A stretch of 64,000 nt of DNA from Bdellovibrionales bacterium Ga0074139 (GTDB lineage: Bacteria > Bdellovibrionota > Bdellovibrionia > Bdellovibrionales > Bdellovibrionaceae). The notes below the pieces were generated by a model. That model saw only the letters and a program-made list of their open reading frames with translations. It ran no database searches and was not told the origin of the DNA. The DNA lies in contig LNEB01000004.1 of assembly GCA_001464795.1 (NCBI GenBank), forward strand, positions 1-64,000, written 5' to 3'. This document shows, one piece after another, positions 1 through 54,177 of the stretch (position 1 is the stretch's first letter; the number at the start of each line of letters is the position of its first letter). Both the position numbers and the translations under genes were made by a program.

Positions 1-1195
1 TAGATCCACCATCAGTGTTTCCATTTGTAGATCCACCATCAGTGTTTCCATTTGTAGATCCACCATCAGTGTTTCCATTTGTAGATCCACCATTTGCATT
101 ACCATTGGCGTTGCCATTTGCATTACCGTTCGCGTTTCCGTTTACTGATCCACCGTTAGAATTACCATTAGCATTACCGTTAGAATTGCCATTCGAATTT
201 CCGTTAGCATTGCCATTCGCATTTCCATTTACAGATCCACCATTGGAATTGCCATTAGCATTACCGTTAGCATTTCCATTTGAGTTACCGTTGGCGTTGC
301 CGTTTGCATTACCATTCGCGTTTCCGTTTACAGATCCACCGTTTGAGTTACCGTTTGAGTTACCGTTGGCATTGCCATTGGCGTTTCCATTGGCATTACC
401 GTTAGAATTGCCATTCGCATTTCCGTTCGCGTTTCCATTTGAGTTACCGTTCGCGTTGCCGTTTGCATTGCCATTTGCGTTTCCGTTCGCGTTGCCGTTC
501 GCGTTGCCGTTTACAGATCCACCGTTTGAATTTCCGTTTGAGTTACCGTTGGCATTGCCATTGGCGTTTCCATTGGCATTACCGTTAGCATTGCCATTCG
601 CATTTCCGTTCGCGTTTCCATTTGAGTTACCGTTCGCGTTTCCGTTTACAGATCCACCATTGGAATTGCCATTAGCATTACCGTTAGCATTTCCATTTGA
701 GTTACCATTCGCATTGCCGTTAGCATTACCGTTCGCGTTGCCGTTTGCATTGCCATTTGCGTTTCCGTTCGCGTTTCCGTTTACAGATCCACCATTAGCA
801 TTACCGTTAGCATTTCCATTTGAGTTACCATTCGCATTGCCGTTAGCATTGCCATTCGCGTTTCCATTTACAGATCCACCATTGGAATTGCCATTTGCAT
901 TTCCATTCGAATTTCCGTTTACAGATCCACCGTTAGAATTGCCGTTGGAATTCCCATTTGAGTTACCATTGGAATTCCCATTATGACCGCCATTGGAATT
1001 ACCATTGTGGCCACCATTTGAGTTGCCATTCGAATTTCCGTTGGAGTTACCGTTCTTACCGCCGTCTTTTCCACCGCCGTGTGAACCGCCATTGGAATTA
1101 CCGTTGTGGCCACCATTTGAGTTGCCGTTAGAATTTCCGTTAGAGTTACCGTTCTTACCGCCGTCTTTTCCGCCGCCGTGTGAACCACCATTAGA
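1..1195. repeat. Tandem repeats coding for Asn-Gly motifs
   Basis: The DNA is built from degenerate 12-bp units coding Asn-Gly-Asn-Ala or Asn-Gly-Asn-Ser, interrupted at irregular intervals by units coding GGSVNGN. Positions 1-81 hold three nearly identical 27-bp units (nine residues each). Further in, around 1060-1200, two larger blocks of about 108 bp are near copies. Third codon positions vary between units while the protein pattern is kept, which suggests selection on the protein and not recent slippage, except in the 27-bp units, which look recently expanded. Confidence 0.85.
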
Positions 1196-1453
1196 GGAGC
1201 CACCATTTTTTGTGCCTCCACCCGCGTTTCCATTTGATCCGTCATTGCCTTGATTGCCTGGACCGGAATTGCCGACACCGCCACCAGAGTTGCCAGTGCA
1301 GAGTTTTGAATTTTTAGAGCAATCAAAGGTTTGACCATTGTTGGTCTTACCGTTTGTAACTTTGGGTGAACTGCTTGTCGCTAAAGCGGGTTGTAGGAAA
1401 AGAAGCGACGAGCATACGACAAATCGAGTGATTTGAATAACGGGACGATTCAT
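1..1453 (-). CDS. Secreted Asn-Gly repeat protein (3' end outside window)
   Basis: This minus-strand frame is open for 484 codons from an ATG at 1453 to the window edge, so the C-terminus is missing. Upstream of the ATG lies GTTGGAGTCCTC, a usable GGAG ribosome site. The N-terminus (MNRPVIQ...LFLQPALA) is a signal peptide of about 25 residues. A short region with two cysteines (FDCSKNSKLC) follows, then a Gly-rich stretch with two GGSHGGGKDGGKNG blocks, and then hundreds of residues of NGNS, NGNA and NGGSVNGN repeats. Towards the window edge the repeat becomes DGGSTNGNT. I recognise no family. Extreme Asn/Gly content with a signal peptide suggests an exported, flexible, surface or matrix protein; that role is inference. 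Other long frames here are mirror images of the repeat and not genes. Confidence 0.82.
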   Translation of the reverse strand, partial: MNRPVIQITRFVVCSSLLFLQPALATSSSPKVTNGKTNNGQTFDCSKNSKLCTGNSGGGVGNSGPGNQGNDGSNGNAGGGTKNGGSSNGGSHGGGKDGGKNGNSNGNSNGNSNGGHNGNSNGGSHGGGKDGGKNGNSNGNSNGNSNGGHNGNSNGGHNGNSNGNSNGNSNGNSNGGSVNGNSNGNANGNSNGGSVNGNANGNANGNANGNSNGNANGNANGGSVNGNANGNANGNANGNANGNANGNANGNSNGNANGNANGNSNGGSVNGNANGNSNGNANGNANGNANGNANGNANGNANGNSNGNSNGGSVNGNANGNANGNANGNANGNANGNSNGNANGNANGNSNGNANGNANGNANGNSNGNSNGGSVNGNANGNANGNANGNSNGNANGNANGNSNGGSVNGNANGNANGNSNGNSNGNANGNSNGGSVNGNANGNANGNANGNANGGSTNGNTDGGSTNGNTDGGSTNGNTDGGS

Positions 1454-27045: not shown

Positions 27046-28095
27046 ATGTGTAATTATGTCAACATGCTTTTTGTCGATTATTTGCTGTTTGATCTTAACT
27101 CCTATTTTGCGTCCTGCGAACAGCAGGATAATCCTGCATTACGAAATCGTCCTGTGGCTGTTGTTCCAATGCTATCAGACTCCACATCAGTCTTGGCGGC
27201 AAGCATTGAAGCGAAACGAAAAGGAATTAAAACAGGGACAAAAGTCATTGATGCAAAAAAAATGTGCCCAGGAATTCAGTTCGTTACCACAAGCCACAGA
27301 AAGTATTTGGAATATCATGAAAAAATCTTAAAAGCTGTGGATGAAATTATTCCCATCGACCAGGTGCTATCCGTGGATGAGGTCTCTTGTCAGCTGATGG
27401 GAACTCAGCGGGAACTTTCAAAAGCCATTGAACTGGCTAAAAAATTAAAAAGCCACGTCCAAAACACCGTTGGAATTTGCCTCACTTCATCAGTGGGACT
27501 GGGACCCAATTCACTAATTGCAAAAATAGCCTCAGACATGCAAAAACCGGATGGCTTGGTGTGGATCCCCAAAGAACAAATTCATGAAAAACTAGGTCCT
27601 TTATCCGTGCGTGTGGTTCCAGGAATTGGTGAAAAAACGGAAATCATGCTGAACAATTTAGGCATTTTCAAAATTCAGGATATTTTAAAACTCAGTCCCG
27701 CCGAAGCCCGCAATAAATGGGGCAGCATTTTAGGCACCAAAGTTTTACAAGGTCTTTTGGGTGAAGCTTATCTTTATGAACACGGAGCCACTCAATCCAT
27801 GGGTCATGAACATGTGCTTGAACCTGAGCTCAGAAATTCGGCAGGCTCTTTTTCAGTGGCGATGAAACTTCTTAACAAAGCTTGTATTAGGGTTAGAAAA
27901 AATCATTACCGCTGTGGATCCATGCATCTCTCTATTCGCTTAGTGAACAAAGAAAAAATAGAAAAAACTTTAAGCTTTAGTCCGACCCACGACACCGGAC
28001 TTTTGATGAAGCACTTAAAAACCATGTGGCCCGAGAGGTTCCAAGCAAAACCTTTCAAGGTCAGCGTTGTTTTATCAAGTTTAAGTGAAAAATAA
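27046..28095 (+). CDS. Y-family DNA polymerase (DinB-like)
   Basis: Error-prone translesion polymerase, up to 349 residues. Active-site acids are in FDLNSYFASCEQ and SVDEVS; the steric region ASIEAKRKGI, the helix-hairpin-helix VPGIGEKTEIMLNNLGI and the little-finger domain follow. The first ATG is 27046; an ATG at 27064 (MLFVDYLLFDLN) is also possible. Just upstream is an imperfect direct repeat TGTGTAAATAA/TGTGTAATTAT but no TTACN3GTAA LexA-type box that I could find. Its stop codon lies inside the left arm of the large inverted repeat. Confidence 0.92.
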   Translation: MCNYVNMLFVDYLLFDLNSYFASCEQQDNPALRNRPVAVVPMLSDSTSVLAASIEAKRKGIKTGTKVIDAKKMCPGIQFVTTSHRKYLEYHEKILKAVDEIIPIDQVLSVDEVSCQLMGTQRELSKAIELAKKLKSHVQNTVGICLTSSVGLGPNSLIAKIASDMQKPDGLVWIPKEQIHEKLGPLSVRVVPGIGEKTEIMLNNLGIFKIQDILKLSPAEARNKWGSILGTKVLQGLLGEAYLYEHGATQSMGHEHVLEPELRNSAGSFSVAMKLLNKACIRVRKNHYRCGSMHLSIRLVNKEKIEKTLSFSPTHDTGLLMKHLKTMWPERFQAKPFKVSVVLSSLSEK

Positions 28096-28186
28096 GAGTC
28101 TTTTCATATCAGAAAATGGGATTAAAACAAGCCTAAGGGGACGCCTTCGCCATTACTGTAAGGCGTTAGTCATTTTGCCTGTAAAA
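28088..28186 (+). repeat. Left arm of a 99-bp perfect inverted repeat
   Basis: I compared this arm base by base with the reverse complement of 28364-28462 and found no mismatch in 99 bp. The arm starts in the last codons of the polymerase gene and supplies its TAA stop (28093-28095). It carries an internal hairpin (ACGCCTT, 12-nt loop, AAGGCGT). Confidence 0.95.
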
Positions 28187-28250
28187 CCTTGATCAACAAG
28201 CCCGTGGGGGAATTTCCTTCTCGCGGGTCCCCGACAAAGACGAATTCTAA

Positions 28251-28274
28251 GGGTACCAGGCACGTTACTGCCCC
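28251..28274 (+). repeat. Dispersed gene-end repeat, copy A conserved block
   Basis: Begins GGGTACCAGGCACG and ends TTACTGCCCC. The same block recurs, reverse-complemented, at 33633-33657 (copy B) and 46159-46182 (copy C). In all three the block is nearest the stop codon of the gene it follows and a GTCCG/CGGAC hairpin comes after it. Confidence 0.88.
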
Positions 28275-28309
28275 GCGTCTGTCCGGAATTCGGACCGACG
28301 CTTTTTTTT
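28275..28309 (+). terminator. Intrinsic terminator after the polymerase gene
   Basis: Stem GCGTC-T-GTCCG, loop GAATT, CGGAC-C-GACGC (one mismatch), followed by eight T (28302-28309). It is oriented to stop transcription coming from the polymerase before the glucoamylase gene. It is part of repeat copy A and lies in the invertible spacer. Confidence 0.88.
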
Positions 28310-28363: not shown

Positions 28364-28462
28364 TTTTACAGGCAAAATGACTAACGCCTTACAGTAATGG
28401 CGAAGGCGTCCCCTTAGGCTTGTTTTAATCCCATTTTCTGATATGAAAAGACTCTTATTTTT
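28364..28462 (-). repeat. Right arm of the 99-bp perfect inverted repeat
   Basis: Reverse complement of 28088-28186. It contains the leader of the glucoamylase gene and its first 20 coding bases (ATG at 28443), so both arms touch coding sequence. No Shine-Dalgarno is evident before that ATG; TTTCTGAT precedes it. Confidence 0.95.
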
Positions 28463-33606: not shown

Positions 33607-33657
33607 GTCTGTCCGGTGGGCCGGACTGACTTGGGGCAGTAACGTGCCTGGTACCCC
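33607..33657 (-). repeat. Dispersed gene-end repeat, copy B
   Basis: Between the convergent ptsI and icmF. Hairpin GTC-T-GTCCGG, loop TGGG, CCGGAC-T-GAC at 33607-33630 and the conserved block at 33633-33657. Read from icmF, the order is stop codon (TAG overlapping the block), block, hairpin, as in copies A and C. No T-tract follows, so intrinsic termination is less certain here. Confidence 0.82.
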
Positions 33658-36600
33658 TAGAGGTTACGGCGATACTGGCCGCCCACTTCGAACAGGGCCT
33701 GAGTCATTTGGTGAAGACTGCAGTGCCTTGAGGCTTCCATCAAAGATTCAAAAACATTTCCGCCTTCAAGTACAGTTTTTTGCAATTCTTTTAGCTTTTC
33801 AGCTGAAAGATCTGCATGAGCTTTTTGAAAACTTTGAACGGACACAAGCTGATGATTTTTTTCTTCAAAGCTAGCCCGGGCGAGTTCAATTTTTGGTGGA
33901 ATAAAATCTTGTTTTAAAGTTTTTGGATCAATAAATGTATTCACACCGATGATGGGAAGACGTCCATCGTGCTTCAAAGTTTCGTAGTACAAAGATTCCT
34001 CTTGGATGCGGGACCTTTGATACTGAGTTTCCATGGCACCGAGCACTCCACCGCGCTCGTTGATACGCATAAATTCTGTAAGTACGGCTTCTTCCACAAG
34101 CTCTGTGAGCTCTTCTAAAAAGTAGCTGCCTTGGAGTGGATTTTCATTTTTAGTCATACCAAATTCTTTATTAATAATCATCTGAATTGCCATGGCCCTA
34201 CGAACAGATTCTTCTGTAGGTGTGGTGATCGCTTCATCATAAGCATTGGTGTGCAAAGAATTACAATTGTCATAAAGTGCAATCAAAGCCTGAAGTGTGG
34301 TTCTGATGTCATTAAAATCAATTTCTTGAGCATGCAGCGATCTACCGCTGGTTTGAATATGATATTTTAATTTCTGTGATCTGTCGCTGGCCTGATAAAG
34401 ATCACGCATGGCAATCGCCCAAATTCTTCTAGCCACTCTTCCAAGCACTGTGTACTCTGGATCCAAGCCGTTAGAAAAAAAGAAGGATAAATTAGGAGCA
34501 AAGTCATCCACCTTCATGCCGCGAGATTTGTAGTACTCGACGAACGTAAAACCATTGGACAAAGTAAAAGCCAATTGGCTAATGGGGTTGGCGCCGGCCT
34601 CTGCGATGTGATAGCCCGAAATACTGACTGAATAAAAATTTCTTATTTTATGATCAATAAAAAAGGACTGAATATCACCCATCATTTTGAGAGCAAACTG
34701 AATGGAAAATATGCAGGTGTTTTGCCCTTGATCTTCTTTTAAAATATCCGCTTGCACCGTGCCTCGGACTTGAGTGAGCGTCCAATTTTTTACTTCTTGA
34801 AATTCTTTTTCATTTATTTTCCGACCTAGCTCTTTTTCTTTTTTCTCGACCTGCTGATCAATCGCAGTATTAAAATAAAAAGCAAGGATCATGGGTGCAG
34901 GACCATTAATGGTCATGCTAACTGATGTATTGGGCGAGCATAAATCAAAACCTGCGTACAACTTTTTCATGTCGTCTAGGGTGCAAACACTAACTCCTGA
35001 TTCCCCGACTTTTCCGAAAATATCGGGGCGAGTCGTGGGATCAAAGCCATACAAAGTCACACTGTCAAAGGCTGTGGATAGCCTCAATGCACTTTCACCT
35101 TTTGTTAGATAATGAAATCTTTTATTTGTCCGGTCTGGTGTGCCCTCGCCTGCAAACATACGCTTAGGGTCTTCGTCGGTTCTTTTTAAATTAAACACAC
35201 CGCACGTATAAGGAAACTCTCCGGGAACATTTTCTAAATTAAGATATTTAAGCCTGTCACCCCAATCATTGATTTGTGGGACACTGACTCGGGGGATTTC
35301 TAAACCACTTAAGGAAGTGGATTTCATAGGCTGCTTGATTTCTTTATCACGAACGAAATAAGTGAGCTCTTTCGCTTTATACTTTTGAATCAATTGATCC
35401 CAAGAATTCAAAGACCCAAGCTCGGCCGCTGTGAAGTCTTTTTCTAATTCTTTTTCTAATGTTTCAAGCTCGGCTTGATTTTTTAATTTAGGTTTTAATA
35501 ATTTTAAAGCCCCCAGTTCGGAAGCTTTCTTAGCCAGTTTCAAAGTTCTATCTTTATAACCCCGAACGGTTTTTACGATTTCAGCTAAATAGTTTTGCCT
35601 TTCAGCAGGAATGATCACGTGCTCATCGGCCGCTAAAATGGATTTTTTAGTGATATCACTGATTTTAAAAGTGTCTTCCGACTTTGCTAAAACATCAGAA
35701 AGGTGAAAGAAAAGTTGATTGACCCCACCATCATTGAACTGACTGGCTTGAGTGAGAAACACAGGCACTGCGGTTTCTTGATCAAATAGCTTTCTAGATC
35801 TTTTAAATTGCTTGGTCACATCTCTTAAAGCGTCTAAAGCTCCACGACGATCCGCTTTATTCACAGCAATCATATCAGCGAAATCGATCATATCAATTTT
35901 TTCTAATTGTGACTGAGCACCAAAATCAGAGGTCATCACATACAACGAATGATCTGATACTTCCGTGATCGCCATATTGCCTTGGCCAATTCCTGAGGTT
36001 TCTGCGATGATCAAATCAAAATCAAATTTTTGTAAAGCACTTAAAACATCCGGCAAACTTTGCGCTATTTCTTTTCCCGAGCCCCTAGATGCTAGCGAGC
36101 GCATAAAAATGCGGTCTCTGGAAAGAGAGTTCATTCGGATACGGTCCCCTAAAAGACCGCCTCCGGTTTTTCGTTTTGTGGGATCCACACAAACGATGGC
36201 AATTTTTTTATCCACGTAGGTGTTTAAAAATCTTTGCGCGAGCTCGTCGATCAAAGAGGACTTCCCTGCGCCGCCCGTTCCAGTAATACCTAAAACAGGA
36301 GTTTTTGATTTTTTATTTTTAAAGTTTTCTAAAGTTTTTGTTAGATTTAAATCTTTTTTATTTTCAATGGCTGATAAGTAAACCCCTAAATCCTGAGAAG
36401 GTACAGGATCCTTTTGGTAGGGATTTTCTTTGAGTTTATTTTTTACAGGATAATTTTTTTGAACGGCCTGGTTCACATCAAAGTCACAGGCGTCCACAAT
36501 CATTTTGATCATGCCTTCTAGGCCTAAGCGTCTTCCATCATCAGGGTGAAAAATTTGATCTATCCCGTAGGCTTCTAATTCTTTCTTTTCGTCGTAAATG

Positions 36601-36899
36601 ATAACTCCGCCGCCACCACCAAATATTTTCACGTATCCTGCACCGGATTCCACAAGCAGGTCTTTCAAGTACTTGAAGTACTCCATATGACCGCCTTGAT
36701 AAGATGACACACAAACACCTTGAGCACCCTCTTGAAGCACAGCTTTTGCCACATCTGCAACAGATTGGTTGTGACCCAAGTGAATCACCTCAGCGCCCAT
36801 ATCTTGAAGAATTCTTCGCATGATATTAATGCTGGCATCATGACCATCAAAAAGACTGGCCGCTGTGACAATTCGAACAGGATTTTTTAACTGATTCAC
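33657..36899 (-). CDS. icmF: Fused isobutyryl-CoA mutase IcmF
   Basis: Adenosylcobalamin-dependent interconversion of isobutyryl-CoA and n-butyryl-CoA, 1080 residues. Order: B12-binding domain (1-140, with DGHDAS at 18-23 supplying the His ligand), a MeaI-like G-protein chaperone (about 200-430, Walker A GTGGAGKS near 207-214, [17 protein letters not shown] and NKAD) and the TIM-barrel mutase (about 530-1080, with FPYTCGVF and [13 protein letters not shown]). Start is GTG at 36899 after AGGAG. It is downstream of hbd and a crotonase, so butyryl-CoA would flow into beta-oxidation. The stop codon abuts repeat copy B. Confidence 0.94.
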
Positions 36900-46081: not shown

Positions 46082-46114
46082 AAAAAGCCCATGAATTCAT
46101 CATGGGCTTTTTTT
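46082..46114. terminator. Bidirectional intrinsic terminator
   Basis: Perfect 11-bp stem AAAGCCCATGA / TCATGGGCTTT (46084-46094 and 46100-46110) with loop ATTCA, flanked by A-tract on the left and T-tract on the right. It ends the + gene at 46056 and could also end the fadI-fadJ unit from the other side. Confidence 0.9.
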
Positions 46115-46136: not shown

Positions 46137-46182
46137 GTCCGGCCAACCGGACTGATTCGGGGCAGTAACGTGCCGGGCACCC
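46137..46182 (-). repeat. Dispersed gene-end repeat, copy C
   Basis: Hairpin GTCCGG, loop CCAA, CCGGAC (46137-46152), then the conserved block (46159-46182), which differs from copies A and B in two positions near the stop end. The fadJ stop codon overlaps the last base. Same order as the other copies when read from the gene. Confidence 0.8.
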
Positions 46183-48341
46183 TAGGAGTAAAAGGTTTTT
46201 ACTTTTTTGAGGGCTTCTGAGGGCTCGAGGCGCTTGCCTGCGTTTCGCTTTGATGAGTAATCCGCTAATTGAGTGGCCACGTACTGAGCTGTGATTTTAT
46301 CAGCGTACTTCAGTAAGCCTCCGCGAAATGGCGGGAAACCTGTTCCCATAATCATGGCCAGATCCACTTCGTGTGGGAGCTCGACGATTTTATCATCGTA
46401 AAAAGCTCTTGCACATTCGTTGATCATGGCAAACACACCGCGCTCGATACATTCTTTGGAATCATAGGGATTTGTCGGCGTTTTTAAACCCAAGGCTTCA
46501 TAAATCGACACGTCCACTTCGCCGCGGTAGTCTTTATCATCGTAATGGTAAAAACCTTTGCGGTTCTTTTTACCCAGCCGTCCTGTGGATTCTAAAGCCA
46601 CCATACAAGGGGCTAAATCCACACGCTCACCGAAAGCTTTTTTAAATATTTTTAAAACCTTAATACAAACATCCAAACCCACTTCATCCATCAAAGCAAA
46701 GGGGCCCATGGGCATTCCAAATTCTTTTACATAATAATGATCCACCGTTTTGATATCCATGCCTTCCTGAAGTAAGAAAGCGGCTTCGGCCATATAAGGT
46801 AGAAGTAAACGGTTCACTAAAAATCCCGGGCCATCTTTTACGACTACAGGCATTTTTCCCATTTTTTTTGTGAGCTCAAAGATGGTCGCAATGGTTTTAT
46901 CTGAGGTTTTTTCACCGCGAATGATTTCAACCAGTGGCATTTTATGAACGGGATTAAAAAAGTGCATGCCTGCAAAGTTCTCGGGCCTTGGGTGCCCCTT
47001 GGCCATCTCAGTCACAGACAAGGACGAAGTGTTCGTCACAATCAGCGCATCAGACTTCATTTGAGTCGCCGTTTCACCAATCACCTTTTGTTTTATTCCC
47101 ATATCTTCAACGATGGCTTCCACCACAACATCTAAGGTTTTAAAATCGGCGTAATCAGTACCGCCTGAAATCAGACTTACTTTTTGAGTCAACTGGTACT
47201 GATCAATCACTTTTTTCTTAGCTAACTTTTGCCATAAATCTCTGGCGTGCTTGTAAGCTTTCGCTAGTGCTTCGGTGTTCAAATCTTTAACCCTGACTTT
47301 GATACCTTTATCGGCTGCCACATAGGCGATTCCGCCCCCCATGGTGCCAGCTCCTAGTATCCCAAGACCTTTTACTTCCATGGGAGTCACTTCCACTCCT
47401 GGAACTCCCGTTTGCTTTTTTACCATCTCAGTTAAATCAAAGACGTGAATCAAACTTTTTGAAATATCTGTTACAGCTACTTCACAAAAACCATTTTTTT
47501 CGATTTCCAGAGCTTGCGTGCGATCACTCATCTTGTAGGTTTTTTTAATCACTTCTAAAGCTTTTAATGGCGCTGGGTAGTGACCGTTGGTGGCTTTCAG
47601 CACACCTTTTTTAGCCGCATTAAAAACCACAAAGCGAAGGGGCCCTTCAAGAAGACCCGCAACCAAGCCTTGAGGCTTAAAGGTTTTTTTGCGCTTCTTG
47701 CCACCGTCTTTAAAGATCTCTTGGATAAATCTGACCGTGTGAGCTTCTAATAAATTCTGATGCACCATTCGGTCTGTTAAACCAATTTTATTGGCTTTTT
47801 TAGCGTTTAATAATTTACCTGCCAGAATCACATCTAAGGCGGCCTGCAAACCCACCACCCGAGGCAAACGAACACAACCGCCAAAACCTGGTAAAATTCC
47901 TAGCATGGTTTCAGGTAAACCAATTCTTGTTGATGAATCATCACTGGAAATTCTATAATCACAAGCCAAAATCAGTTCACAGCCACCGCCCGCGCAGGCC
48001 CCGTGAATAGAGGCAAAGGTCGGAATCGGTAAATCTTCAATGATATTAAAAATACTTTGCCCCTGCCCCACGGCCTCTGCAAACTTGGCTGGAGTATCAA
48101 GCTTTTTAATTTCATCAATATCAGCTCCAGCGATAAAGATTTTTGGCTTTTTTGAAACAAACACCAAAGCTTTATACTGTGAATTTCTTGCCACTTCTTG
48201 CAAAAGCTCACGCATTTTCATCATCACAGGAGTGCTGAGCTTATTGACTTTTTCACCTGTTAAGTCCATTTCGAAAAAACAAACGGATCCCACACCAGCC
48301 ACTTCACGAGGTACAAGTTTTAAACCTAAATCTTGGCTCAT
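46182..48341 (-). CDS. fadJ: Fatty acid oxidation multifunctional protein FadJ
   Basis: 719 residues from ATG 48341; a GTG at 48353 is rejected because GAGG before the ATG and the stop of fadI fit the later start. N-terminal crotonase half (AGADIDEIKK, GACAGGGCELILACDY, GLPETMLGILPGFGG) and C-terminal 3-hydroxyacyl-CoA dehydrogenase half (GAGTMGGGIAYVAADKG, GMHFFNPVHKMPLVEI). Catalyses hydration and oxidation steps of beta-oxidation with FadI. fadB is the alternative name; the pairing with an FadI-type thiolase favours fadJ. Confidence 0.92.
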   Translation of the reverse strand: MSQDLGLKLVPREVAGVGSVCFFEMDLTGEKVNKLSTPVMMKMRELLQEVARNSQYKALVFVSKKPKIFIAGADIDEIKKLDTPAKFAEAVGQGQSIFNIIEDLPIPTFASIHGACAGGGCELILACDYRISSDDSSTRIGLPETMLGILPGFGGCVRLPRVVGLQAALDVILAGKLLNAKKANKIGLTDRMVHQNLLEAHTVRFIQEIFKDGGKKRKKTFKPQGLVAGLLEGPLRFVVFNAAKKGVLKATNGHYPAPLKALEVIKKTYKMSDRTQALEIEKNGFCEVAVTDISKSLIHVFDLTEMVKKQTGVPGVEVTPMEVKGLGILGAGTMGGGIAYVAADKGIKVRVKDLNTEALAKAYKHARDLWQKLAKKKVIDQYQLTQKVSLISGGTDYADFKTLDVVVEAIVEDMGIKQKVIGETATQMKSDALIVTNTSSLSVTEMAKGHPRPENFAGMHFFNPVHKMPLVEIIRGEKTSDKTIATIFELTKKMGKMPVVVKDGPGFLVNRLLLPYMAEAAFLLQEGMDIKTVDHYYVKEFGMPMGPFALMDEVGLDVCIKVLKIFKKAFGERVDLAPCMVALESTGRLGKKNRKGFYHYDDKDYRGEVDVSIYEALGLKTPTNPYDSKECIERGVFAMINECARAFYDDKIVELPHEVDLAMIMGTGFPPFRGGLLKYADKITAQYVATQLADYSSKRNAGKRLEPSEALKKVKTFYS

Positions 48342-48342
48342 C

Positions 48343-49683
48343 TTACGCCTCACTTTCTAAAATCATCGAACCACCTTGACCGCCACCAATACAAAGTGTG
48401 GCTAAACCAAACTGTACATTTCTTTTTTTCATCTCTTTTGCCAATGTCGTGACGATCCGTGTGCCCGTGGCTCCCACAGGGTGCCCGATGGCAATGGCTC
48501 CACCGTTCACATTCACAATTTTTGGATCCACAGATCCCACTTTTCCAGATAAGCCTAATTTGTTTTTTCCGAATTCATCAGAATCCATAGCTTTCAAGCA
48601 CGACAGCACTTGAGCTGCGAAAGCTTCGTTCAACTCCACAAGACCGATGTCTTTCATTGATAAGCCTGCACGCTTCAATGCCACTGGTGTTGAGTACACG
48701 GGGCCTAACCCCATACGCTCGGGCTCAAGCCCTGCAAATCCATAGCTTCTGATTTTAGCAAGCGGCTTGTATCCCAGGCTATCCGCTTTTTCTCTGGACA
48801 TCATCAGCAGCATGGCAGCTCCGTCCGTGATGGGGCAGGAATTTCCTGCGGTAATGGTTCCTGTGAGTTTATCAAAAAAGGGTTTTAGTTTTGCTAAAGC
48901 TTCCATGGTTTGACCATCACGGGGGCCCGTGTCTTCACCCATGGTCAGTTTGTAATCCGTAGGCAATGTGTAGTTTGCGATTTCATCTTTTAACCGGCCC
49001 GACTTGTTAGCTGCAACTGCTTTTTGATGACTTTCGAGTGCAAACTGATCTTGAGTTTCCCTTGATAGACCAAATTCTTTTGCCAAAATTTCTGCCGTTT
49101 GCCCCATGTTAATTCCAGCAAAAGGATCCGTTAAACCTTTCATCACTGAAATCACCGGAAAATACTCGCTTCTCATATTTCCAGTCAAAAGCGCTTTAAT
49201 TTGACTGATATCACCTTTAAAAAGTTGCCACAGAAGGGCTATTTTTTGTGCTGGAGCTTTTGCAGCAAAAAGCTGATCAAAAGTATTTTGAATTTTCGTA
49301 GGCAACAAAGTCGGCATTTGTGACATGCTTTCAGTTCCACCCGCCAAAATCACGTCCATGGTGCCTGATTTAATTTTCTCAAAACCTTGAGAAATACTTT
49401 CAAGTGCTGAAGCACAATTTCTGTGCACAGTGTAAGCCGATGTTTTTTGTGGAATTCCAGCATTCAAAGCCACAACCCGAGAGATATTGACAGCATCAAC
49501 GGGATTACCCGTGTTACCGATTATGACTTCGTCGACTAAATTCACATCTAAATTGGTTTTTGCAATCAGCTCACGAAGAGCATGCCTGCCAAGTTCTGCT
49601 GGATGAATTTTTTTAAGTTGAGTGCCCGCTTTTGCAAACGGAGTTCGAAGACCTTCGACGATGACGACGTCTCGTGCTGACAT
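48343..49683 (-). CDS. fadI: Acetyl-CoA acyltransferase (FadI-type thiolase)
   Basis: 446 residues. Nucleophilic Cys in VHRNCASALES, GGTESMSQMP, catalytic His in GGAIAIGHPVGATG and Cys in ATLCIGGGQG. Thiolytic cleavage of 3-ketoacyl-CoA. AGAGGAG lies eight bases before its ATG. fadJ starts one base after its stop. It is divergent from maeB. Confidence 0.93.
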   Translation of the reverse strand: MSARDVVIVEGLRTPFAKAGTQLKKIHPAELGRHALRELIAKTNLDVNLVDEVIIGNTGNPVDAVNISRVVALNAGIPQKTSAYTVHRNCASALESISQGFEKIKSGTMDVILAGGTESMSQMPTLLPTKIQNTFDQLFAAKAPAQKIALLWQLFKGDISQIKALLTGNMRSEYFPVISVMKGLTDPFAGINMGQTAEILAKEFGLSRETQDQFALESHQKAVAANKSGRLKDEIANYTLPTDYKLTMGEDTGPRDGQTMEALAKLKPFFDKLTGTITAGNSCPITDGAAMLLMMSREKADSLGYKPLAKIRSYGFAGLEPERMGLGPVYSTPVALKRAGLSMKDIGLVELNEAFAAQVLSCLKAMDSDEFGKNKLGLSGKVGSVDPKIVNVNGGAIAIGHPVGATGTRIVTTLAKEMKKRNVQFGLATLCIGGGQGGSMILESEA

Positions 49684-52260: not shown

Positions 52261-54177
52261 ATGTTCTCTTTTTTCAAAAAACCGATTTACTTTTTAACCA
52301 TGCTGACTTGCTTAGCAAGTCTGTCATGCAATTCCAGTGGGACGTCCAATACAGGTGACGCCAACTTTATTGCAACTGGTCAAGTTTCAAGAATAACAAC
52401 TGATATTGAAAACTTAACCATCCAGTACGGAGTTTATACCGAAATTCCGCTGATCATTGAAGGAGCACAAAATCAAAGGCTCAGTTGGCAAATACCAGTT
52501 GAGCAAATGCCTCCTGGAATGAGTCTCGAGAGTGCCAACTCAGGTGAAGCTCTTCTTTATGGCACACCTCTGATTACAGGTCGGTGGTGCATGAATGTCA
52601 CCGCCACCACAAATACCAATGTCATCATTCGCTCACCACTATGCCTGACATCCAAAATCAACAGCAGTTTGCAATTTCCCTATCTCGTTGATTCACAGTA
52701 TCTGGCAGATGGAAAAATCAACTCCTCTTACCGAACTGATTTACAAATCGAGACCCATACAAGAAGAGTTCAAATCTTGGAGCATAGGGCCACATTTCCC
52801 ACTGGCCTTGGTTTGCGTCACGATCAAAAGACGCTTACTCTTACAGGTCTGATCAGCACCGAGGGACTTTATCAATTTGCTATCGAAATCCGTGATGATC
52901 TCAACCGTGCCAGCTACACTCAACTGCAGCTTTTTATTTCGAAAACATCAACAAACCCTTATTGTCCACCTGGATATTATTACGATGACTACTTGGGAAA
53001 CTGTGTCCCCAGTCAAGCCATCACCTGTGGTCAAGGCACTTATTATGATGAGTCAACACAGTCCTGTTTACCCTATCCCAATAATCCTATCTGCCGAGAT
53101 GATTACATCTATGATTCCTTTTATGATCAATGCAGACCTCCCGAGCACCCGAGATGCCCTTGGAACTATGAGTACGATTCTTACGCCGGAAGATGCGTTA
53201 GACTTCCCTACACTTGCCCCGTGGGATCACGCTACTCTCATGTCACCAGAGATTGTGAAGTCATTTATCGAAATTGCTCTTTTGGATATTATTTTGATTA
53301 CTCAAGAAATACCTGTAGGCCTTTTCCTAAATCCTGTGGCTTCAATGAATATTACAACGAGTCCTTAAACAGATGTATCGCAAGAACTCCCCATTGTAGA
53401 AACAACGAATACTTCGATCACTCCAGCGGATACTGTCGACCACGAAACATTTCATGCCGCTATGGTGAACAATGGAACCCGCGCTTAGGTCGCTGCGAAG
53501 ATACAAATCCCATTGCATGCCGCATTGGCGAGCGCTGGGATCCACGCACAAAATCTTGTATCCGTGTCGAAGAGCGACCACCTAATCGACCACCACGTCC
53601 CGAGCCTCGTCCGCCAGCTCCACGTCCTGAACCACGCCCCGAGCCAAGGCCACCAGCTCCAAGACCCGAACCACGTCCCGAGCCAAGGCCACCAGCTCCA
53701 AGACCTGAACCACGCCCCGAGCCAAGGCCACCAGCTCCAAGACCCGAACCACGTCCCGAGCCAAGGCCACCAGCTCCAAGACCCGAACCACGTCCCGAAC
53801 CAAGGCCACCAGCTCCAAGACCTGAACCACGTCCCGAGCCAAGGCCACCAGCTCCAAGACCCGAACCACGTCCCGAGCCACGGCCCCCAGCTCCAAGACC
53901 CGAACCGCGTCCCGAGCCACGGCCGCCAGCTCCAAGACCCGAACCGCGTCCCGAGCCACGGCCACCAGCTCCAAGACCTGAACCTCGTCCCGAGCCAAGG
54001 CCACCAACTCCAAGACCTGAACCTCGTCCCGAGCCAAGGCCACCAGCTCCGCGTCCCGAGCCACGGCCTGAGCCACGTCCCGAACCTCGGCCGCCAGCTC
54101 CGAGACCGCCGCGATTTCCAGGCGATGTGGATGTTCAAGTCAGTGATTATAAAGTTATAATTGTTTATAAATCTTAG
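52261..54177 (+). CDS. Lipoprotein with Cys-rich repeats and a Pro/Arg/Glu repeat tail
   Basis: 638 residues. Lipobox ASLSC (Cys23). Residues about 50-130 and 145-220 look like two putative Ig-like domains (YGTPLITGRWCMNV; LTGLISTEGLYQFAIEIRDD). Then about nine tandem units of the form C-x3-5-Y-Y/F-D/N-x5-10-C-R/x-P (about 235-430). After these comes a proline-rich tail of 13-residue units (PRPEPRPEPRPPA, about eleven, about 440-610), and a short end (DVDVQVSDYKVIIVY). Probably an extended outer-membrane surface lipoprotein, perhaps spanning to the outside. No family recognised. Confidence 0.85.
   Translation: MFSFFKKPIYFLTMLTCLASLSCNSSGTSNTGDANFIATGQVSRITTDIENLTIQYGVYTEIPLIIEGAQNQRLSWQIPVEQMPPGMSLESANSGEALLYGTPLITGRWCMNVTATTNTNVIIRSPLCLTSKINSSLQFPYLVDSQYLADGKINSSYRTDLQIETHTRRVQILEHRATFPTGLGLRHDQKTLTLTGLISTEGLYQFAIEIRDDLNRASYTQLQLFISKTSTNPYCPPGYYYDDYLGNCVPSQAITCGQGTYYDESTQSCLPYPNNPICRDDYIYDSFYDQCRPPEHPRCPWNYEYDSYAGRCVRLPYTCPVGSRYSHVTRDCEVIYRNCSFGYYFDYSRNTCRPFPKSCGFNEYYNESLNRCIARTPHCRNNEYFDHSSGYCRPRNISCRYGEQWNPRLGRCEDTNPIACRIGERWDPRTKSCIRVEERPPNRPPRPEPRPPAPRPEPRPEPRPPAPRPEPRPEPRPPAPRPEPRPEPRPPAPRPEPRPEPRPPAPRPEPRPEPRPPAPRPEPRPEPRPPAPRPEPRPEPRPPAPRPEPRPEPRPPAPRPEPRPEPRPPAPRPEPRPEPRPPTPRPEPRPEPRPPAPRPEPRPEPRPEPRPPAPRPPRFPGDVDVQVSDYKVIIVYKS
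53608..54104 (+). repeat. 39-bp tandem repeats coding PRPEPRPEPRPPA
   Basis: About eleven 39-bp units, spaced at 39 bp from 53614 to 54043, with a partial or longer unit at the end. Codon variants (CGT/AGA/CGC for Arg) cluster in neighbouring copies, as expected for repeat exchange. Long overlapping frames on both strands here come from the repeat and are not genes. Confidence 0.88.

Follow-up and report, generated by a model that had tools for sequence, protein, structure and literature searches.

Three dispersed gene-end repeats in a 64,000-nucleotide stretch of DNA from a Bdellovibrio-like bacterium, analyzed here as a single 64-kb window, are very probably solo copies of the repeat that forms the ends of a REP-associated tyrosine transposase (RAYT) unit (REPtron/TIRtron). 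This assignment was drawn from sequence comparisons in which an association with a RAYT gene, the copy number, a lineage-specific spread, an empty site in relatives and a placement at stop codons were each observed.

Alignment of the copies within the genome defined one element of ∼46 nt, consisting of a 24-nt block, GGGTACCAGGCACGTTACTGCCCC, usually followed by GCGTC or a variant of this motif and then by a hairpin with the core TCCG-N4/5-CGG. The relevant features of the window were as follows.

28248..28250, + strand: native stop codon (TAA) of dinB, which encodes a DNA polymerase IV-like protein of the IMS family; immediately 5' of copy A
28251..28296, + strand: copy A, comprising the 24-nt block GGGTACCAGGCACGTTACTGCCCC, GCGTC and a GTCCG hairpin; directly 3' of the native dinB TAA
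33611..33656, − strand: copy B, beginning right after the TAG (33657-33659) of a methylmalonyl-CoA-mutase-like gene (33657-36899, − strand)
46137..46182, − strand: copy C, the first G of which completes the TAG stop codon of a FadB-like gene (46182-48353, − strand)
46082..46112, + strand: independent intrinsic-terminator-like hairpin, adjoining copy C but a separate structure

An initial annotation had described three copies with a common order of block and hairpin relative to the stop codon of the preceding gene, and all three were present at these places, each abutting the stop codon of a gene. Searches for the block with ≤3 mismatches detected three matches in the window and none in any shuffled window; the three copies are real and far beyond chance. 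For copy A, the end of dinB was placed at 28095 by the ORF caller. The translated tail, LDQQARGGISFSRVPDKDEF*, matched the C termini of the DinB proteins of relatives, which indicated a native stop codon at 28248-28250, such that the native C terminus and TAA sit directly before the block. Copy A was also found to be enclosed by a perfect 99-nt inverted repeat (28088-28186 and 28364-28462). The left arm (28088-28186) reproduces the start region of a glucoamylase-like gene in inverted orientation and occupies the place of ∼45 further dinB codons in relatives, and the dinB frame is broken. As 99 is a common assembler k-mer length, this inverted repeat may be an assembly artefact. Other repeats detected in the window were tandem 39-nt units (13 codons, up to 94% identical) at 53475-54176, inside an ORF at 52261-54177, and a long 12-nt-periodic repeat region at the start of the window (1-1200).

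The window belongs to a genome represented by one draft assembly (2.9 Mb in 15 contigs), whose nearest public records were Pseudobdellovibrionaceae and other Bdellovibrionota. Nine Y1_Tnp genes were present in this genome, and just one of these was located between copies of the block.

C3:258262-259077: full RAYT unit of 816 bp, with the transposase between two inverted full copies of the element
C3:258323-258973, − strand: RAYT gene, encoding a Y1/HUH transposase of 217 aa

The blocks pointed outward and the hairpins inward at the ends of this unit, and the two ends were identical over 36 nt. The 217-aa protein scored above the cut-off of PF01797 and reached 82.1 bits with the NCBIfam model NF047646 (REP_Tyr_transpos), for which the cut-off is 80. 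Its sole relative in the PDB was the E. coli TnpAREP protein (4ER8; E = 2e-6), and both the HUH motif (NHFH) and the tyrosine, in YVYQNP, were retained. These inverted full copies around the RAYT gene, which lie outside the window, were decisive: by its sequence the 816-bp unit has the anatomy of a REPtron or TIRtron, and the block is therefore very probably its terminal repeat, with the window copies being putative solo ends. The suggestion of a mobile repeat in the initial annotation was thereby borne out, the copies matching the two inverted ends of the C3 unit. The neighbors of the unit were two convergent genes, for an outer-membrane-like protein and a transporter, and the ends of the unit touched both stop codons.

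A second RAYT gene of this genome (L022, ∼1144-1993, on C15 near 147 kb) had different ends, CCATTTGGTGCCAGGTCCTGTTTC, one of which began right where the 3' CCA of a tRNA-Ser(tga) gene ends. Other Y1_Tnp genes (L021, L023, L025, L026 and L027) were of a different type (QGNHLHLLVKA), and some genes of this type had GGCACCGCCC and GTCCGA motifs upstream, possibly another repeat family.

The initial annotation had proposed that the complete genome and related genomes be searched for the block. At ≤3 mismatches, 13 copies of the element were detected in the genome of the window, six on one strand and seven on the other, as against none in the reversed control. A sequence model recovered all 13 copies and three diverged ones (C12:58197, C11:87217 and C5:28407), giving 11 solo copies plus the three diverged copies. 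This copy number of ∼13 to 16 is low for a REP family. The 24-nt block was nearly invariant among the copies. An unpaired CGTC was located directly before the stem in 5 of the 13 copies, both RAYT ends included, and TGTC was found in one copy.

The corresponding search of relatives came back empty, the exact block being found in 0 of 99 relatives, of which two belong to the same genus (with 98% completeness for one of these two), and a sequence-model search of four relatives produced nothing convincing beyond the block search. Four relatives (G001, G002, G007 and G021) had the same convergent gene pair without the transposase, and the stop codons of this pair in G001 were only 1 nt apart. Orthologs of the copy B gene in relatives ended at the same residue without an element, while same-genus orthologs of the copy C gene stopped near the corresponding position, with TAA and likewise no element. 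This combination of an empty site, absence of the block and orthologs ending without the element indicated that the RAYT unit and its solo copies are lineage-specific additions. No empty site was obtained from a record of a related organism (L014) that shares the sugar-PTS operon, because its outer neighbors differ.

Homologous RAYT proteins were encoded in 67 of the 100 genomes searched, the genome of the window included. Inverted repeats were detected around or overlapping the ends of the RAYT gene in 27 of 28 readable loci, and an outer GGTACC or GGTGCC edge was present in 19 of these 27 repeat-bounded loci, with the remainder of the repeat varying between families. The ends thus appeared to co-vary with the transposase, as expected for RAYTs, which implies co-evolution. 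CGTC was found in 11 of 37 RAYT ends of relatives versus a background of 15% (P = 0.02) and was at the same distance in 8 of these 11. A sister end family, AAGGTRCCTGCTTCYTTTT (also written AAAAGGTACCTGCTTACTTTT), had matches in 20 of the 100 genomes, with a maximum of 85 per genome; the richest was a 2.9-Mb genome of the same order (G079; 85 matches). Copies of this sister family often occurred in head-to-head pairs ∼50 nt apart, as do REPINs.

The position of the copies relative to stop codons was distinctive. For nine of the 13 copies, the start was 2 to 5 nt beyond the initial base of a stop codon whose gene had the same reading direction (for copy A, the native dinB stop codon). The same offset was observed for 0.18% of all positions, 1.9% of noncoding positions and 7.8% of noncoding positions preceded by TA, TAA or TAG, and the excess was significant even against these TA-type positions (P = 6e-8), for a background measured on the 64-kb window with an ORF set and a target definition that were picked after the pattern was seen. 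Three further copies were inside the 3' ends of genes, to which they added short tails such as GTGHVTAPR*. Two ORFs, L009 (C14:333151) and L013 (C14:334439), ran into the element and ended there with the tails GTGHVTAPR* and GTRHVIALR*, respectively, which the element encodes. The exception to this gene-end rule was a degenerate copy (C14:333754) at the 5' end of a HAD-like gene. In later checks, two of the three diverged copies abutted a stop codon at −4, and sister-family copies in Bdellovibrio-like genomes abutted stop codons in 16 of 45 cases versus ∼2% expected, these copies being not fully independent as G007 and G036 have some orthologous sites in common.

A cytosine preceded the T of the stop codon in 9 of the 11 abutting copies, in comparison to 12 of the 47 stop codons of the window (P = 1.5e-4), and a C was present at −2 in 30 of 43 sister-family copies. 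Cleavage by TnpAREP enzymes takes place at C|T adjacent to the REP (PMC8266576), and the preceding C thus fits, by analogy, with what a RAYT insertion would leave. REP ends are known to often supply a TAG stop codon and to lie within 20 bp of gene ends (PMC3733652).

If the copies are products of this transposase, the enzyme would recognize the hairpin and block as folded single-stranded DNA, cut at a C|T-type dinucleotide next to the block and join the copies to fresh target sites of the form C|TAA or C|TAG. The literature consulted on TnpA-REP enzymes describes in vitro cleavage and strand transfer only. Stop codons would be over-represented because they contain the target and because insertions there, which keep the protein intact, are tolerated, while insertions inside genes would be lost by selection. 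Several points counted against the assignment to a RAYT: the assembly is a single draft, the copy number is low for a REP family, the canonical GTAG tag is missing, one degenerate copy departs from the gene-end rule, and under the published guide rule C|T cleavage would not be expected from a CGTC in front of the hairpin. A narrower version is doubtful. In it, the unit would be a REP of the CGTC-tagged type that has a transposase dedicated to it, and this enzyme would aim at C|TAA or C|TAG, the stop codon itself, such that the stop is regularly preserved or recreated upon insertion. If true, this version would provide the link that was sought and missing in the 2013 survey of CGTC repeats (PMC3733652) and, for a single-strand transposase, a targeting rule of the "safe harbour" kind.

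The hairpins of the three window copies differed in their potential for termination. Copy A had a 10-pair stem followed by T8, with a fold of −17.2 kcal/mol (z = −5.6), whereas no such stem and U tract was found in copies B and C, confirming the earlier description of A as a full terminator and of B and C as having poor T tracts. The copy A hairpin with its T8 is predicted to be able to act as an intrinsic terminator, the only plausible one of the three. A terminator family was rejected as the general function, given that a T tract was present in copy A only and that copy C has a separate terminator. A phage origin was also rejected, there being no exact match in a viral contig collection.

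A more general role for the host was considered, in which a hairpin after the stop codon stabilizes the mRNA, ends transcription or slows terminating ribosomes, and selection has both placed and kept the copies, whatever their origin. Such a host-kept 3'-end element would account for the location of 12 of the 13 copies at a gene 3' end in the same orientation and for the strong stem and T8 of copy A, and REPs within 15 nt of a stop codon have been reported to stall E. coli ribosomes (PMC12306157). The absence of a T tract from all window copies but A, and the terminator standing beside copy C, do not favor it, however, and the 24-nt block, near-invariant and carried by both RAYT ends, is stricter than the function of a hairpin needs (the initial annotation had said as much with regard to a terminator). 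Furthermore, none of the relatives searched has the family, even within the genus, and the orthologous genes there manage without it. We therefore consider this explanation improbable, while a side effect of the element on the host transcript is possible.

The near-invariance of the block over 24 nt could also be expected of a small RNA or of a site for a host DNA-binding factor unrelated to transposition, and both a small RNA and factor binding had been raised in the initial annotation. No Rfam match above the gathering cut-off was obtained for six loci (five family copies, all three window copies included), and no promoter-like site was found near the three window copies, on which grounds the small RNA was rejected; factor binding survives only insofar as the transposase itself probably binds the element, and not for a host factor. 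As the exact element bounds a transposase gene and is confined to a single genome among those searched, there is hardly any likelihood that either of these host functions is the origin of the repeat. It is also very unlikely that the association is secondary, with the RAYT unit having simply landed in an unrelated repeat whose copies were already there. Some insertion sequences do target REPs, but in this case both ends of the transposase unit are full inverted copies, only one of the Y1_Tnp genes of the genome lies between block copies, and the repeats that bound related RAYTs in many genera are different ones but keep to this design, indicating co-evolution. Terminator, small-RNA and host-factor readings are not needed to explain the element.

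Solo copies of a RAYT terminal repeat are a described type. The initial annotation knew of no name for the repeat, whereas a type name exists, either the TIR of a TIRtron or the REP of a REPtron (PMC3733652), and the element can be placed by its sequence in the TIRtron class that Di Nocera et al. described in 2013 (PMC3733652), a class that includes moderately abundant TIR families. As in TIRtrons/TIRYT (PMC3733652), a RAYT-type gene is enclosed by non-GTAG inverted terminal repeats with extra solo copies in the genome. The element differs from described TIRtrons in its Bdellovibrionota lineage, in its own end sequence, in an inner half that is a hairpin often placed after CGTC and in the location of copies at the stop codon. 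GGGGWSAS, found in many but not all described TIRs and not a strict requirement (PMC3733652), was not in the block consensus as read. The GTAG REPs and REPtrons of the TnpA-REP systems of E. coli and other gammaproteobacteria (PMC2817692, PMC8266576) similarly consist of short palindromes in one genome, with two inverted around the RAYT gene and a location near gene 3' ends; the element differs from them in its extra conserved 24-nt block and in having only about 13 to 16 copies. No unpaired GTAG (or GTGG/GGAG) head stood at the hairpin foot, either in the consensus or in the RAYT ends; the flank of the element was often CTAG or CTAA, outside the invariant part.

With an unpaired CGTC immediately ahead of a short stem-loop (5 of 13 copies), the element partly resembles the CGTC-tagged REPs (PMC3733652), from which it differs in that its stem does not start with AT pairs, in having no CCA tail and in its attached transposase, none having been found for CGTC repeats in that survey. 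A Y1/HUH transposase and end hairpins are features in common with IS200/IS605; in contrast to those elements, the ends are mutually inverted copies that also occur solo, and the protein matches the REP-associated model and not the IS200 model. REPs that supply stop codons are already known, and the element is a RAYT repeat of a described kind and not a new kind. The residual novelty is the CGTC tag beside a transposase (missing according to PMC3733652) and the sharp stop-codon rule.

These results extend RAYT-driven repeats to the Bdellovibrionota, for which no such description was found in the literature searched. They point to a common end design, with an outer GGTACC or GGTGCC, across many genera and to a fast turnover of the remainder of the repeat. 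Taken together, the near-exact stop-codon placement, the vacant site in close relatives and the C that precedes the stop codon would provide a concrete and testable target rule for TnpA-REP enzymes.
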